Assembly: GCF_000317065.1 (NCBI RefSeq)
Contig: NC_019701.1
Location: 682,001-746,000 of the forward strand
Length of the DNA: 64,000 bases
From: Pseudanabaena sp. PCC 7367
GTDB lineage: Bacteria > Cyanobacteriota > Cyanobacteriia > Pseudanabaenales > Pseudanabaenaceae
Direction: 5' to 3'
The translations under genes and the position numbers were made by a program. The notes under the pieces were generated by a model. It saw only the letters and a program-made list of their open reading frames with translations. It was not told the origin of the DNA and ran no database searches. Shown one piece after another: positions 13,646 to 60,190 of this stretch. The stretch's first letter is position 1; every line of letters starts with the position of its first letter.

Positions 13646-14065
13646 ATGTTGAACTTAGAGCAAATCCTAAAGCAAGACCACCTTTTGCGGGCAATGACAG
13701 GACTGAATCGTCAAGCCTTTGAATCGCTCTTGCCCAATTTTACTCAAGCTTATCAAGATAGCCAGAACAAGCCAGAGAAACGTCGTAAACGAGCACCTGG
13801 CGGTGGACGCAAAGCCACATTACAGACGATAGAGTCCAAGCTATTTTACAGTTTGTTCTACTGTAAATGCTACCCCACGTTTGATTTGGCAAGTGTGTTG
13901 TTCAACTTTGATCGTTCCCAAGCCCACGAATGGGTACATCGTTTAGTGCCAATCTTAGAAACCGGATTAGGATACCGCATGGTTTTGCCAGAGCGAAAAC
14001 TGCATAGTATGGATGAATTTGTGAAACGCTTTCCAGAGGTGAAGCGGGTCATGATAGACGGGTGA
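13646..14065 (+). pseudogene. IS5-family transposase, N-terminal part
   Basis: First 139 residues of an IS5-family DDE transposase: an N-terminal helix-turn-helix region (ESLLPNFTQAYQDSQ, then the basic linker KRRKRAPGGGRKATL) and the start of the catalytic domain up to RVMIDG, which includes the first catalytic Asp. It stops at TGA in 14063-14065. The frame is lost because the 14 bases at 14062-14075 (GTGATCATAGATGG) nearly repeat the preceding 14 (11 of 14 the same). Removing them restores the continuous reading RVMIDGTERPV. A programmed frameshift is the alternative, but a 14-base duplication explains the doubled IDG better. Confidence 0.75.
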
Positions 14066-14559
14066 TCATAGATGGTACAGAGCGACCGGTACAACGCCCC
14101 AAGGATCAAGCCCAACAGCAGGCAAACTATTCGGGTAAGAAACGTCGGCATACACGCAAGCACATAGGTGCAGTAGATGAGCACAAGCGGATCTTGGTTT
14201 TAACTCAAGCCCGAGAGGGTAAAGTGCATGACAAACGACTTTTGGATGAAGAAGACCTAGTTGCAGCAATTCCAGATGAGATACCAATTGACGTAGATTT
14301 AGGTTTCTTAGGTTTACACAAGGAGTATGTCAACATACGCATCCCGCATAGAAAGCCGAGAGGAGGTAGTTTGAGTCCGGCTCAAAAGGATGAGAACTTA
14401 GCCCTGTCTCGAGAGCGAGTGCTCTGTGAAAATGCCTTTGCTGGCGTGAAGCGCTACAATTCTGTTGCAGCAGTTTATAGAAATCGTGTGACTGATTTTG
14501 ATGACCGTCTGATGTTGGTTGCTTCAGGGCTATGGAACTTCTATTTAGAGGCAGCTTAA
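14062..14559 (+). pseudogene. IS5-family transposase, C-terminal part
   Basis: Remaining catalytic domain in the -1 frame. It opens with a second IDGTERP (first DDE Asp), followed by the second Asp in DVDLGFLG and the catalytic Glu in ERVLCENAFAGVKRYN. The open frame begins at a GTG overlapping the upstream stop by four bases, so translational coupling could make a separate C-terminal polypeptide. On its own this would lack the DNA-binding N-terminus. The full DDE set is present, so a single frame repair would give a complete transposase of about 300 residues. Confidence 0.75.
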
Positions 14560-22192: not shown

Positions 22193-22594
22193 CTATACAA
22201 GTAAGGATGAGTTGTAATGATGCACAAATAACCAGATAGCGCCAACATGGTTAGCTAACTTTTTCGAGAAAGAAAGAGATTTGCGAACCAGTCTTGAAGC
22301 TCTTTGCCTAAGAGTGCAATTAAATCGCTCAATTCTATTAGTCAAGCCTGAACCTTTGTCCACTGGTTGATGACGCATACTCGGAACTACCTGAGCATAG
22401 GCACGCCAGAAATCAGTGTAACAAACAGCACATTGTCGATAAACGGGTGGTAAAGACTGCCATAATCCTTGAGCACCAACCTCATCTCTAGAACCGATAT
22501 ACACTCCTACGATCTCCTTAGTATCAACATCTATAGCTAACCAAACCCAAACCTTGACTCGTTTCTTGCCTACAAAAGACCACAGCTCATCCAT
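22193..22594 (-). CDS. insB: IS1 InsB, catalytic part of transposase
   Basis: DDE-type catalytic half of the IS1 transposase. The frame contains MDELWSFVGKKR (first Asp), the DFWRAYAQV region (second Asp) and TNRIERFNCTLRQRASRL (catalytic Glu and basic helix), in the order found in IS1. In vivo it is expected only as an InsAB' fusion. A -1 slip on the run of eight A (plus-strand T at 22613-22620) changes the InsA end into KKKGHLTIQMDELWSF, which continues into this frame. Independent translation from the internal ATG is less likely to matter. Confidence 0.93.
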   Translation of the reverse strand: MDELWSFVGKKRVKVWVWLAIDVDTKEIVGVYIGSRDEVGAQGLWQSLPPVYRQCAVCYTDFWRAYAQVVPSMRHQPVDKGSGLTNRIERFNCTLRQRASRLVRKSLSFSKKLANHVGAIWLFVHHYNSSLLV

Positions 22595-22914: not shown

Positions 22915-22968
22915 GAGAGAGAATTTTTGTATCTTCTATCCCATTATCCTTACTTCTGCATGACTACC

Positions 22969-22976
22969 AATTATTT
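22969..22976. repeat. IS1 target-site duplication, right copy
   Basis: Exact copy of AATTATTT at 22178-22185. It marks the site where IS1 entered, about 110 bases before the RTX gene. Confidence 0.9.
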
Positions 22977-23043
22977 AAATAGTTGGAATGATTGCCCGAT
23001 CGACCTAGCCCAGCCAGGCGTAACGCTTTCACTTGGGAAAAAT

Positions 23044-23049
23044 TATAAT
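23044..23049 (+). promoter_or_regulatory. possible -10 element of the RTX gene
   Basis: TATAAT, 37 bases upstream of the ATG at 23086. I see no good -35 hexamer at the usual distance. IS1 lies about 75 bases further upstream. Confidence 0.4.
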
Positions 23050-23085
23050 AAAAGAGTGGGATGCGATCCGATCGAGGGGAAAACA

Positions 23086-23787
23086 ATGGCGATATTTTTT
23101 GATTTGACCAATTTTAATGATGTACGCGGGTTCATTCCCACTGAGCTGTGGGGATTTAATCAGGGCGTGCGTGGTCTAGGCGGTGATGACTTTATTCGTG
23201 GCTCTAGTGATCCGGAAATTTTTAATGGTAATAGGGGCCGTGACACCTTAAGAGGTAACTTTGGTGAGGATACGCTCTATGGCGGTAGGGATAATGACCT
23301 GATTGATGGCGAGGGCAACAACGATCGGGTAGATGGCGGCTTTGGCGATGATACGGTACGCGGTGGCGACAACGAAGACCTGGTATTTGGCAATGATGGC
23401 AATGACGATGTGTTTGGCGACAATGGCGACGACACCTTAATTGGTGGCTTTGGCGTTGATAATCTCACCGGTGGGGAAGGGCGCGATTTATTTGTATTTA
23501 GCGACGACGACACTGTGTTTGATATTTTTGATGCCGATGCGGTGTTTGACTTCAGCCGGGGTCAGGGCGATCTGATTGGTATAAACGACGATGCCTTTGG
23601 CGGGCGCGGTGTGATCCTCGACGATCGCTTCGACTATTCCGACATCTTTGGCGGCGGCATGTCCGTTGATACGGTGATCGAAGAAGATTTCTCCGGCCGC
23701 ATTTTGGGCGTAGTAATCGACACTGACATTGGCGATCTACGCGATCGGATCGTATCAGTGCCCAATGACCTGTTTGGCTTTGCCTAA
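23086..23787 (+). CDS. RTX-type calcium-binding repeat protein
   Basis: Predicted secreted protein with hemolysin-type nonapeptide repeats. I start at ATG 23086 (MAIFFDLTNF), which has GAGGGGA upstream; the longer frame runs back into IS1. Residues about 45-140 contain at least nine GGxGxDxxx-like units (DTLRGNFGEDTLYGGRDND, DTVRGGDNED, DTLIGGFGVD), each expected to bind calcium on a beta-roll. A C-terminal 80 residues with FDFSRGQGDLIGIND resembles the capping/secretion region of type I-secreted RTX proteins. It is short (233) and has no enzyme domain, so it may act as a surface or S-layer-like protein. No type I secretion genes are adjacent. Confidence 0.9.
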   Translation: MAIFFDLTNFNDVRGFIPTELWGFNQGVRGLGGDDFIRGSSDPEIFNGNRGRDTLRGNFGEDTLYGGRDNDLIDGEGNNDRVDGGFGDDTVRGGDNEDLVFGNDGNDDVFGDNGDDTLIGGFGVDNLTGGEGRDLFVFSDDDTVFDIFDADAVFDFSRGQGDLIGINDDAFGGRGVILDDRFDYSDIFGGGMSVDTVIEEDFSGRILGVVIDTDIGDLRDRIVSVPNDLFGFA

Positions 23788-55166: not shown

Positions 55167-56759
55167 CTAGTTAAACATGGTTAATTGCTGAGCTTGATGA
55201 TTAGGTGGTTTAGCCGATCGCTTGCGTTTCTTTTTTGCTTTTTGGGGCTGAAGTTGTTTAGGCGCTTGTTTACTGGTTGGTTTACTTTTCTCTGGATCAG
55301 AAACATCAGCACTTGGAACCACTAGTTTTAGATGCGCCTGTCGATCGCCACCAGGCTCTAGCTCAATTATTTCAACCGTTTGAGTCATTCCCTGGCTAGT
55401 TACAGCCGCAGGATTAGGTAATGCCTTTTCATCAGCCGAACCATATTCCAGCGCGATCGGTTCAGTAAGTTTAGTAGTAGGTTTTGATTCAACAATTTTT
55501 GAGTTCTCGTTTGTCTCAGTCTGTTCAATTGAATCACTACTAATTCCCAGCAATGCCCTTGTCGCGCCAAGCATTTCAGCTTTGAGGTTAGCTAAATCAG
55601 CACGAGTATCCAGATATGCAGTCAACGCCGCGATCGGATCGAGCACTTCGGTAATCTGTAAATTTGGCAATCGCGCCCGACTTGCTTGGCTAACCACATC
55701 CGGGGCGATCGTATGGGTGTGGGCAGTTTCTAGCGCCTCGTGTAGTTCCGCTTCATTAATTTGGCTGAGCTGTGCCGCTTGCAAGCGATAGATCAGCCTT
55801 ACGATCGCATTGTTGATCTCACCCTGGGCGATCGCCTTCAGGATTACTGCCTGCGGATCGGCCTCCTTAGTCACATCTAGCCGGATCGTCAGGAACGATC
55901 GCGTCGGCAAGGCGCAAAACTCAAACTTAGTCTCGAACTTGGCTTGTTTTTTTGAGATCTCTAACCAGCAATAGCCTTTTTCTTCTTTCTCTTCGCCGAA
56001 ATCTACCCGCTCAATGCTACCGGGATAGACCACCAGGGGATTTTTTGCCAAAACTTGATGACGATGCACATGCCCCAAGGCCACATAATCAAGCTCAGTT
56101 CGATGTAGCAAAGACAACGGCACCGTGAAACCTTTACCAGCCGCTAAGAATCTTTCTGCCCCATAGGCAGCCTTATCCACCATCGCATGGGCTAGCAGAA
56201 TAGTGGGTAAATTGGGATTGAGTTGGCGAATTTCTGATTCCAGGATAACCGCCAATCGATCGAGCAGGAGCCTATCTACAGCGGCGATCGACATGCCTTC
56301 CGTTTCCTGGCGGGTCAGCAGGGCAGATCGATTCAGCCAGGGCAAAGTAATAACTTGAATCTTGCCAGCGGCAGTGACGATTAAATGGGTTTCCAGGCGA
56401 TCGCCCACCGTAAACCCCGGCACGGCCAAACTACGGTAGATCGCCAGGCTTGCTCCCCCTTGCCCTTGGGTATGTTGATCGTGATTGCCCACCAGCAACA
56501 CGGCGGGAATCTGCACATCAGCGAGGCGGCGGAATTGACGGGCGAAGGCTTGCTGTACATAGGGGGGCGGCGTAGCATCAGGAAAGGCATCGCCACCAAA
56601 CAGAACCAGATCGGCGGGTGCTTGGACAGCGCGATCGATGCAGCGGGTCAACGCGGCGAGGAAGTCTTCGAATCTGGTATTTAATCCGGTTTTGGGGTTA
56701 ATTTTGCCGTGGGTGGTGCTGCCCAGGTGAATATCGGAGAGGTGCAGAACTTTAATCAT
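55167..56759 (-). CDS. sbcD: SbcD/Mre11-type DNA repair nuclease
   Basis: Calcineurin-like phosphoesterase, nuclease subunit of SbcCD, which processes DNA hairpins and protein-blocked ends. Metal motifs are in order: HLSDIHLG, FGGDAF, GNHDQH, LAHAMV and LGHVHRHQ. A capping domain follows (about 290-410). Residues 410-530 are an extended Ser/Lys/Pro/Gln-rich tail ending in a basic KPKAKKKRKRS-like patch, not found in E. coli SbcD. The ATPase partner sbcC is not adjacent here; it must lie elsewhere. The minus-strand neighbour upstream is the eight-module protein. Confidence 0.92.
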   Translation of the reverse strand: MIKVLHLSDIHLGSTTHGKINPKTGLNTRFEDFLAALTRCIDRAVQAPADLVLFGGDAFPDATPPPYVQQAFARQFRRLADVQIPAVLLVGNHDQHTQGQGGASLAIYRSLAVPGFTVGDRLETHLIVTAAGKIQVITLPWLNRSALLTRQETEGMSIAAVDRLLLDRLAVILESEIRQLNPNLPTILLAHAMVDKAAYGAERFLAAGKGFTVPLSLLHRTELDYVALGHVHRHQVLAKNPLVVYPGSIERVDFGEEKEEKGYCWLEISKKQAKFETKFEFCALPTRSFLTIRLDVTKEADPQAVILKAIAQGEINNAIVRLIYRLQAAQLSQINEAELHEALETAHTHTIAPDVVSQASRARLPNLQITEVLDPIAALTAYLDTRADLANLKAEMLGATRALLGISSDSIEQTETNENSKIVESKPTTKLTEPIALEYGSADEKALPNPAAVTSQGMTQTVEIIELEPGGDRQAHLKLVVPSADVSDPEKSKPTSKQAPKQLQPQKAKKKRKRSAKPPNHQAQQLTMFN

Positions 56760-56865: not shown

Positions 56866-59800
56866 CTACCATATTTCAGGCCATTGAAAATCATTCCTAG
56901 AACTAGCTTTTTTAATTGCTGCTAGTTCAGTTTTGAATTCTCTTCTTAGCTGTAAGAAAGCACTCGTCTCTTCCGTTGTAACCTTATCTAATAAGCCTGC
57001 TGAGATTATTTCGTTCAGTTTGTCCAGGCATCGATCCAAGGTCATTGCAAATTGCGCACGAGTTATATCTTGGTTTTCACGTTCAGCAAAAGATATACAG
57101 CCGATGCGCTTTGATAATCTTGTCATGATGGGATAAACCCATGCAGGCGTAGGTAATCTAGTGCTTTGTTCAATAGTACTTTTAGCTAGTTCAACATCGT
57201 TATAGTGAAGATTACCCCAACCCTCCAATTTCCATAAAGCTAAGATATCTTCTCTGGGTAGTTCGTCTTTGCCTAAATCGATCCTTTCATATATCTCTTT
57301 CAGACAATCTCTTACCCCAAGGGAAAACTCATAGCGACTCAGTGCCTGTAACTTATGTCGATCGCTATCAGTTCGTTTCAATTCCTCGCACCCATATCGT
57401 TTGCCGAGATCAAGAAGAGACTTGTAAATTGCATCATTAGGGGCAACGCTATAGCCATCAATGTAGCCTGAAGGTTTGATAATCTCCCCATCTGCCAGGT
57501 TATCATCGTCAGAGTAAAAGTTCGCTCTTAAAGGTGAAGGTAAGGCTTCTAGACCAGAAAGACCAGCTATATCTGCGGCAAATTCTTCCTGTAATCGTGC
57601 CAGCGCTGCCAAGTCTTCTTTGGCGATTGTGTCCACGAGACCAGATGAAATTATTTCGTTGATCTTATCCAAACAAGCATTAAGTCCAGCGGCAAATTCA
57701 CGTCGAGAAATAACTACATCTTTCTCAGGTTCACCTTTATACTCTTGAATACATTCGTACTTCTCAATAAGCTTGACTAGTGCTTTATATTCCCAATCGC
57801 TTGTTTTTATAGATCTAAATACAAAAAATTCAGAACCAAAACGATTGTAAAGCTTCCAGCCTAAATCAGAATCTTCCTTAGAAACTTGGATTCGCCCATC
57901 ATCATGAATTCGCAGTGTAGTAACTATAGATGAATCATCGGATGAGCTTACCGTTGAGAGGCTTCGGGCGATCGGTAAACGGCTAATCCTCTTTAAACAA
58001 GGGCTTAACTTTGCGATAAACTCATCACGCGGTATGGGCAAAGAGCTGTATTTAGGGTCAAGTGGAACACAACCATATTTGTGGGCTAGTCTTTCTAAAT
58101 CCACACGAGCCCAATACGTTGGGTTAACAACCTCCCCATCTGCATCGCCATTTCCTTCTTCAATTTGTGCTAAAGGTTGATGCTCTTGATCGCTATTGCT
58201 AATTGCTAGCTTAGGCGATCGTAAACTCAGAACAATAGGCGAATAATGGCTATAAGGATCTGCGCCAATTGGATAGAGAACAGCTCTTCTAGAGGCAAGC
58301 TCAGCAGCGAATCTCTCTTGTAATCTTTGCATGGAAGACAAATCTTGCTTGGAGAATCTTTCAGCAAGGCCAGACGAAATAACTTCACTAAGATAGTCTA
58401 GACAGACTTCCAAAACCCAAGAAAAATCCAAGCGATTTATAGTAGATCGATCCAGATCAAATGGATAATTAGCGATGCATCCGTGTTTTTTGATGACTTG
58501 CTCGATCGCCATAAAGTCTTCTGCCTTAGCAGGCCAATCGTTGATGTCTGTGGGGTCTGATGCAATGCTGTCTCTAGTAGAAGATCGGGAGTCATAATCC
58601 GGTGCGCCTGACAAAGCAAGAATAGCTCTATCAGCAAATTTGGTAGTTGGGGCAAACTGTAGTGCTTCTAGTCGAGCAGTTGCAGCTTCTAAGGAATCAA
58701 CTCGACCACGCAAAGTAGCCAATTCAGCAGCATATTCTTCCTGCAATCGCTGCAAAACCACCAGTTCCCCTCTCGATATCTCATCTGCCCCATTAGCACT
58801 AATGATTTCATTCACCACATCCAAACAGTTGCTTAGGCTCTGGGCAAACTCATTTCTGGTTATTCCTTGCTTTTGAAGCAGGTATTGCCCAATGCAATTG
58901 CGTATCTCTCCCAGTGCAATCAGGTCGTGGATATCCTGAGCAGTAGGATTAGTATTACTACTTCTGTGATTGAGAGAGTCAATTGGCGATCTCCTCCGTG
59001 TCCGTGGTCTTCTACGTAGAGCAGAATGACGCGCTGCCGAATAATCGATCCGTTTTTGCATCACCGCTAATTCAGAGGCAAATTGTACCTGAAGCTTGCG
59101 TAAGGCAGATAAATCATTGGCTGAAACTTTTTCCGTTTGCTGCTGCGTAATATCATCGATCAGGATTTCTTCAATATTATTGACACAGATATACAGCTTA
59201 CGTGTAAATTCATAGAGGGTCATTTTCCCGATTGGGAAGTTAGGGCTATGACCTTTGGTAACGCATCGATATCGTTTTTCCAGCGATGCTAAAGTAGTCA
59301 TCTCCCAATCATCAGGTTGAAGAGTTTTTTGAAAGAAATCACTTTCGGGGCTAATTGCTTCTGGTGGCTCTGGCAACTCAAACTCAGGGCTATTCGCAAC
59401 CTCGATCGACTCTGCGACAGAAAATTGTTGTAATTCAAGTTGGGCGTTTTTTGTCTTAGCCTGTCGGCCACGAATATCCTCCAACTCAGAGGCAAACTCC
59501 TCCTCCAGCCGCCGTATATTTTCCAAGTCCTGCTCAGAAACCTGATTCGGTCTAGAATTGAGAATTAAATTCACCCGATCGATACATTGATCCAGCACAG
59601 CGGCAAAGTCGTAGCGGTTAATCTTGATCCGCCCAAACCTAGACGTATCATCATGCCCAGGAATGCAATCGTGGCGATCGGCCAAGGCAAACAAAGCCGA
59701 AAATTCCCAGCCATTGGGTTGTATATAAATACTCTCTGGCGAGGTGTTTTGGGCAATTTCTGCGTCTGAAGATGTAAAGACATCAGCATCTCTAACCTCG

Positions 59801-59901
59801 ATCGACTCCGCAACTACTCCCGACGCATTGCCAACAAATAAAACGATCGCCACCGCCACCGATCGCCAAATGAAGCGATCGCCAGATCTAAACCTGCCCA
59901 T
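56866..59901 (-). CDS. secreted protein with eight repeated two-cysteine (porin N-terminus-like) modules
   Basis: 1011 residues with a Sec signal peptide (hydrophobic 14-29, cleavage likely after VVA31). The rest is eight divergent copies of one module of 75-120 residues: a Tyr/His-x-Cys-(I/V/E) start, a YEF- or REF-type helix, a second Cys-(L/I/V)-(D/K/N), an NEII helix, and a coiled coil of the L-x-x-L-x-x-EF(A)-x-E(L) type. Cys pairs: 79/106, 213/239, 336/359, 475/500, 611/635, 717/743, 838/866, 935/958, with no other Cys. The pattern matches the SLH-plus-coiled-coil N-terminus of cyanobacterial iron-uptake-type porins, but no barrel follows. Modules 5 and 7 are the most degenerate. Envelope linking or scaffolding is inferred. 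Confidence 0.85.
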   Translation of the reverse strand: MGRFRSGDRFIWRSVAVAIVLFVGNASGVVAESIEVRDADVFTSSDAEIAQNTSPESIYIQPNGWEFSALFALADRHDCIPGHDDTSRFGRIKINRYDFAAVLDQCIDRVNLILNSRPNQVSEQDLENIRRLEEEFASELEDIRGRQAKTKNAQLELQQFSVAESIEVANSPEFELPEPPEAISPESDFFQKTLQPDDWEMTTLASLEKRYRCVTKGHSPNFPIGKMTLYEFTRKLYICVNNIEEILIDDITQQQTEKVSANDLSALRKLQVQFASELAVMQKRIDYSAARHSALRRRPRTRRRSPIDSLNHRSSNTNPTAQDIHDLIALGEIRNCIGQYLLQKQGITRNEFAQSLSNCLDVVNEIISANGADEISRGELVVLQRLQEEYAAELATLRGRVDSLEAATARLEALQFAPTTKFADRAILALSGAPDYDSRSSTRDSIASDPTDINDWPAKAEDFMAIEQVIKKHGCIANYPFDLDRSTINRLDFSWVLEVCLDYLSEVISSGLAERFSKQDLSSMQRLQERFAAELASRRAVLYPIGADPYSHYSPIVLSLRSPKLAISNSDQEHQPLAQIEEGNGDADGEVVNPTYWARVDLERLAHKYGCVPLDPKYSSLPIPRDEFIAKLSPCLKRISRLPIARSLSTVSSSDDSSIVTTLRIHDDGRIQVSKEDSDLGWKLYNRFGSEFFVFRSIKTSDWEYKALVKLIEKYECIQEYKGEPEKDVVISRREFAAGLNACLDKINEIISSGLVDTIAKEDLAALARLQEEFAADIAGLSGLEALPSPLRANFYSDDDNLADGEIIKPSGYIDGYSVAPNDAIYKSLLDLGKRYGCEELKRTDSDRHKLQALSRYEFSLGVRDCLKEIYERIDLGKDELPREDILALWKLEGWGNLHYNDVELAKSTIEQSTRLPTPAWVYPIMTRLSKRIGCISFAERENQDITRAQFAMTLDRCLDKLNEIISAGLLDKVTTEETSAFLQLRREFKTELAAIKKASSRNDFQWPEIW

Positions 59902-60118: not shown

Positions 60119-60190
<72 letters not shown>

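Follow-up and report, generated by a model that had tools for sequence, protein, structure and literature searches.

An eight-module, barrel-free protein related to SomB-type porin N-termini in Pseudanabaena sp. PCC 7367

The window, a 64,000-nucleotide stretch of the Pseudanabaena sp. PCC 7367 genome (NC_019701.1, positions 682,001 to 746,000), carries on its minus strand a gene of 1011 codons, all open, with an ATG start and a GAGG a short distance 5′ of it. A tRNA-Asn (60119–60190) lies upstream, and an SbcD-like calcineurin-like phosphoesterase gene (Pfam Metallophos) is found on the same strand 106 bases downstream. A remnant barrel-coding frame downstream of the gene was considered and rejected, as the distance to the next gene leaves no room for one. 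No promoter-like site was found upstream in a crude scan. The GC3 of the gene is 0.37, low compared with about 0.45–0.55 in most genes of the window, and on codon composition it could be weakly expressed. In 24 relatives, no related gene was found up to 1.5 kb from the orthologue of the phosphoesterase gene. The phosphoesterase itself (55167–56759) has a C-terminus some 100 residues longer than its family orthologues, matches to which stop near residue 405–425 of 530. The features of the gene are as follows:

56866..59901, minus strand: whole gene of the eight-module, putatively secreted protein, 1011 aa (ORF; NF033921, 415 bits over eight stretches)
59809..59901, minus strand: signal-peptide-like N-terminus, residues 1–31, cut likely after GVVA (sequence read by eye)
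59464..59724, minus strand: module 1, residues 60–146, Cys 79/106; the sole module with the Trp, Gly29 and Arg43 equivalents all present (alignment, NF033921, porin HMM)
59050..59322, minus strand: module 2, residues 194–284, Cys 213/239; Leu in place of Arg43 (alignment, NF033921, porin HMM)
58702..58947, minus strand: module 3, residues 319–400, Cys 336/359 (alignment, NF033921, porin HMM)
58594..58701, minus strand: relic of a porin coil end and barrel start behind module 3, residues 401–436 (OprB, 28.1 bits; the genome's own porin L001)
58285..58518, minus strand: module 4, residues 462–539, Cys 475/500; Trp shifted by 5 residues (alignment, NF033921, porin HMM)
57925..58128, minus strand: module 5, residues 592–659, Cys 611/635; among the most diverged (NF033921 E 0.001; porin HMM 2.7e-7)
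57553..57813, minus strand: module 6, residues 697–783, Cys 717/743; nearest to porins (59% amino acid identity; 81% DNA identity over 128 bases; model)
57223..57447, minus strand: module 7, residues 819–893, Cys 838/866; without coil (alignment, NF033921, porin HMM)
56911..57144, minus strand: module 8, residues 920–997, Cys 935/958; stops 14 residues short of the protein end (alignment, NF033921, porin HMM)

The N-terminus, MGRFRSGDRFIWRSVAVAIVLFVGNASGVVA followed by ES, resembles a signal peptide by eye, and the product would be secreted to the periplasm. Behind it, a porin-only HMM, for which 44 porin N-termini were taken from this genome and from others, found eight domains, far beyond chance, with i-E-values of 2.7e-07 to 1.7e-32 in a one-protein search. 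The eight modules that a sequence-only reading had described after a signal peptide were thereby recovered. Its cysteine count was likewise exact: the 1011 residues contain 16 Cys, which form eight pairs with no extra Cys, spaced in order by 27, 26, 23, 25, 24, 26, 28 and 23 residues. The motif pattern proposed for every module was recovered in part. The Cys pairs are present throughout, but NEII is exact in no more than three modules (3, 6 and 8), and the helix motif, given as REF/YEF, varies across the modules (YDF/YEF/NEF/LDF/DEF/REF/YEF/AQF). The same applies to the coiled coil assigned to each module, which is full length in module 3 only, shortened in modules 1 and 2 and truncated in modules 4–8. 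All eight keep their two Cys, a core Phe and a coil Leu.

The whole protein matches NCBIfam NF033921, the family of SomB-type iron uptake porins, with 415 bits (cut-off 100) in eight stretches. Scanned singly, all eight modules match it, with E-values from 3.4e-25 (module 6) to 0.001 (module 5), in agreement with the proposal that they correspond to the N-terminal SLH and coil part of cyanobacterial iron-uptake-type porins. In both kinds of scan the matches are confined to profile positions 7–130 of 485, and no stretch was listed past position 130, in the barrel part of the profile (about positions 131–485). Pfam OprB also passes its cut-off (28.1 against 22.9 bits), yet it aligns over only 49 of 372 profile positions, at residues 382–431. 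This match comprises the coil of module 3 and a barrel start; it lies mid-protein, and an OprB barrel sought in the last 300 residues was absent. Since the modules tile the chain up to 14 residues before its end, no NF033921 stretch extends past position 130 and the OprB match is partial, the barrel is judged from these profiles to be absent, as the earlier reading had claimed. FAPTTKFADRAILALSGAPD, which follows the full-length coil of module 3, has as its counterpart FSTTTKLAGRAILALSGAAG in the genome's own porin L001, a barrel start by position. Such a relic favours descent from complete porin genes. With the NF033921 (415 against 100 bits) and OprB thresholds both passed, the gene is an annotation trap that would likely be labelled automatically as an iron uptake porin, though its product is poreless.

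In structural comparisons the closest PDB matches are SLH domains, and the modules may share their fold. An AlphaFold2 model of module 6, computed from an input alignment rich in porins, has a pLDDT of 75, with helices near 85–89. Its best fold match in the PDB is 8bz2, the crystal structure of the OmpM1 SLH domain (probability 1.00, TM 0.78 by target, E only 0.007), and the next unrelated match has an E of 2. A profile of modules and porins together matches 8bz2 at 5e-9 and SlpA (7zgx) at 3e-8, the 8bz2/SlpA/OmpM matches ranging from 5e-9 to 2e-7. A profile of the modules only also gives 8bz2 as the top match (E 0.0085), and a single-sequence PDB search gave no match. In a model of modules 1–3 the helices of each bead are present, with low-confidence linkers, a pTM of 0.31 and no reliable packing between beads. 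Each bead would be a disulfide-closed, SLH-like helical hairpin.

Every module is nearer to porins than to its fellows, with 28–59% identity to the porin N-terminus, itself near-invariant across the porins compared, versus 18–40% among modules. Module 6 shares 59% amino acid identity with one of the genome's own porins, and its DNA is 81% identical over 128 bases to that of the genome's porin L003, which scored higher than any other porin, own or foreign. Because the modules are closer to porins than to each other, and because the best DNA match of module 6 is to L003, the modules probably stem from porin genes of this genome or from close ancestors of such genes, by internal duplication or repeated capture. 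A tree of modules and porins is star-like and unresolved, with end branches of 0.7–3.6 changes per column versus about 0.05 in porins, and a single origin of the modules was not rejected (p-AU 0.40).

The same genome encodes eight ordinary full-length SomB-type porins. No second multi-module protein was found in 38 genomes of the same family, in which every or nearly every candidate was scored; the homologues with the same copy number for which the sequence-only reading had suggested a search were not found among them. Apart from the protein itself, the best matches there are porin-length frames with a single porin N-terminus. In 390 further genomes from the class and 391 from another order, with the first 2–7 candidates per genome scored, the matches were porin frames with one module and no longer than about 725 aa; at this depth a very diverged multi-module protein could escape. 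With modules 7–8 as the query, all of the matches listed outside the gene in the window correspond to module 8 alone, in porin-length frames. A close-relative search of genome contigs with the full protein and with modules 7–8 found none, and a tblastn search against plasmids returned 30 records; in none did a single place span 80% of the query, and the matches listed are porins or unannotated. No two-module porin ORF was found with the porin-only HMM among the porin loci checked. As far as tested, the eight-module protein is restricted to one genome, and this apparent single-genome occurrence limits its generality. Two full-length porins of the same genome, L007 (G000:C2:1730259-1731830) and L008 (G000:C2:4315009-4316646), were considered as double-module porins and rejected, each being one module with a loop insert. 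These inserts of about 15–20 residues (GYEISGAAPSRTVPRLKQTTRVYRG and a similar one) are located at the ligand groove, in the near-invariant GYPD loop of the SLH domain.

The cyanobacterial outer membrane is attached to the wall largely via the SLH stalks of porins. In Synechocystis, less pyruvylation of the wall-linked polysaccharide leads to detachment of the outer membrane (PMC9163127). The residues of SLH domains that engage the pyruvylated wall polymer are Trp13, which stacks on the sugar, Gly29 of GIIxG, which undergoes a backbone flip and on which the ligand flip depends, and Arg43 of TRAE, which forms a salt bridge (PMC6081394). All three are kept in the 44 porin N-termini. Among the modules, Arg43 is kept in seven of eight and Trp13 in six (five strictly in place), and Gly29 is kept in module 1 alone. 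It is replaced in the other seven, with a Gly at the adjacent position in modules 2 and 3 and an Asn in module 4. Trp13, Gly29 and Arg43 occur together only in module 1. When positions at least 93% conserved in the 44 porins were scored over the eight modules, those in the SLH loop were kept in a mean of 1.4 of 8, versus 3.7 of 8 elsewhere in the SLH part (p 0.005 by permutation and 0.0003 by Fisher test). At the level of this alignment, the GYPDxTxRG ligand loop has been selectively lost from the modules. Pfam SLH (PF00395) matches none of the eight at E-values up to 10; it matches an own porin at 4.8e-8. The comparison with known profiles suggested earlier thus succeeded for the porin N-terminal family (8/8 with NF033921) and failed for SLH. 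The genome encodes the wall-pyruvylation pyruvyltransferase CsaB (354.8 bits), so the cell probably makes the pyruvylated ligand. As an own porin keeps its SLH match and the ligand is probably made, the loss of binding residues is specific to the modules.

These findings bear directly on the earlier proposal that the protein binds peptidoglycan at eight points. As a multivalent wall anchor, each of the eight SLH modules would grip the pyruvylated polymer or peptidoglycan, and the whole would hold tightly by avidity as a spacer or scaffold. The module family does descend from a wall-binding domain, Arg43 and Trp13 largely persist, the genome has CsaB for a ligand that is probably made, and weak sites could sum. 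Against this stand the replacement of Gly29 in seven modules, the disappearance of the GYPDxTxRG loop and the lack of any Pfam SLH match; moreover, binding in solution became undetectable in SpaA when Gly29 was changed to Ala in both binding grooves (PMC6081394). Judged on these residues, canonical wall binding at eight points is unlikely, and the proposal is not supported in that form. The modules could possibly bind a different wall ligand.

A decaying chimaera, that is, a recombinant of porin genes that has lost its barrel and drifts, its frame open by chance or its product a harmless periplasmic filler, is similarly doubtful. It would fit the single-genome occurrence, the long branches (0.7–3.6 versus about 0.05 changes per column), the low GC3 and the failure of the crude scan to find a promoter-like site. 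However, all 1011 codons are open, and 16 of 16 Cys are kept, with none extra, at a mean retention over all porin-conserved positions of 42%. The core Phe and Leu persist in every module, and the loss is centred on the ligand loop, a bias not expected from drift alone.

The best reading is a lineage-specific scaffold with its glycan grooves mostly abandoned. More precisely, the protein is proposed, at about even confidence, to be a secreted, soluble, periplasmic beads-on-a-string spacer or cross-linking scaffold derived from porin stalks, with at most one canonical wall site. The SLH and coiled-coil stalk of the genome's own SomB-type porins would have been multiplied and the beta-barrel discarded. 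The copies have diverged much faster than the porins, retaining core and Cys and giving up the ligand loop. Arg43 interlocks adjacent SLH domains, and TRAE is important in the folding of SLH trimers (PMC6081394), roles that may explain its persistence in the modules. Because the conserved Arg has these roles, packing of the beads with each other or with the stalks of porins would still be expected. At most, module 1 would bind the pyruvylated polymer in the canonical way, through one groove to which module 2 contributes its Trp and module 3 its Arg. Near the wall, such a protein would act as a flexible spacer or cross-linking scaffold, rather than as an eight-point wall clamp. Of the earlier suggestion of an envelope spacer or scaffold, the scaffold is still plausible, and the wall grip at eight points is weakened by the loss of Gly29. 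A more specific form, in which an eightfold wall-anchor concatemer had its grooves switched off and kept the trimer-forming core, making it a soluble periplasmic cross-linker that joins or caps porin stalks, is rather improbable. A role as porin partner is very unlikely; in it, the modules would slot into the trimeric SLH/coiled-coil stalks of the porins, cap them or keep them from contacting the wall, and would thereby connect or regulate several trimers. The modules do come from the same trimer-forming element, keep its core and Arg, and share the genome with eight porins, but the coil is truncated in modules 4–8.

The building block of this protein is well known. SomA/SomB-type porins (NF033921; OprB/SLH) are secreted and have an N-terminal SLH-like hairpin with a Cys pair, the NEII helix and the LQEEFAAEL coil. 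They differ from the eight-module protein in having one module instead of eight, a barrel, an intact ligand loop and a coil that is not mostly shortened. OmpM of Veillonella (8bz2/8bym) and SlpA of Deinococcus (7zgx), the best PDB fold and profile matches, share the homologous SLH element. Both are SLH–coiled coil–outer-membrane barrel connectors, trimers of three barrel-ended chains; this one-chain layout is not found here, as the barrel is missing. SlpA keeps the same three motifs (W, GVILG and TRYE; PMC9388160), unlike the eight modules, which mostly lack the full set. The monoderm S-layer anchors SpaA and Sap also have several SLH domains per chain. Theirs form a pseudo-trimer of three accompanied by a separate functional domain, and the active grooves retain the binding residues; the present protein has eight modules, and the W/G/R set is complete in one. 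Alr3608 of Anabaena is another cyanobacterial SLH-bearing protein in which OprB is absent, but it has only two SLH domains, in its C-terminal region (PMC9705863). Neither the papers nor the other genomes searched contained an eightfold, barrel-free concatenation that has lost its ligand loops, in line with the earlier statement that no described protein was known to have this layout. A natural protein of this kind uncouples ligand binding from fold, disulfide and trimer packing, and it may represent a lineage-specific envelope scaffold.

Three further features were observed elsewhere in the window. At 13646–14559, a transposase is encoded in two overlapping frames, with HTH_Tnp_4 in the first half, and is possibly frameshifted or subject to programmed frameshifting. 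An IS1-type transposase ORF (Pfam DDE_Tnp_IS1) is located at 22193–22594, and is followed at 22927–23787 by the gene of a small RTX calcium-binding repeat protein (HemolysinCabind, 67 bits).
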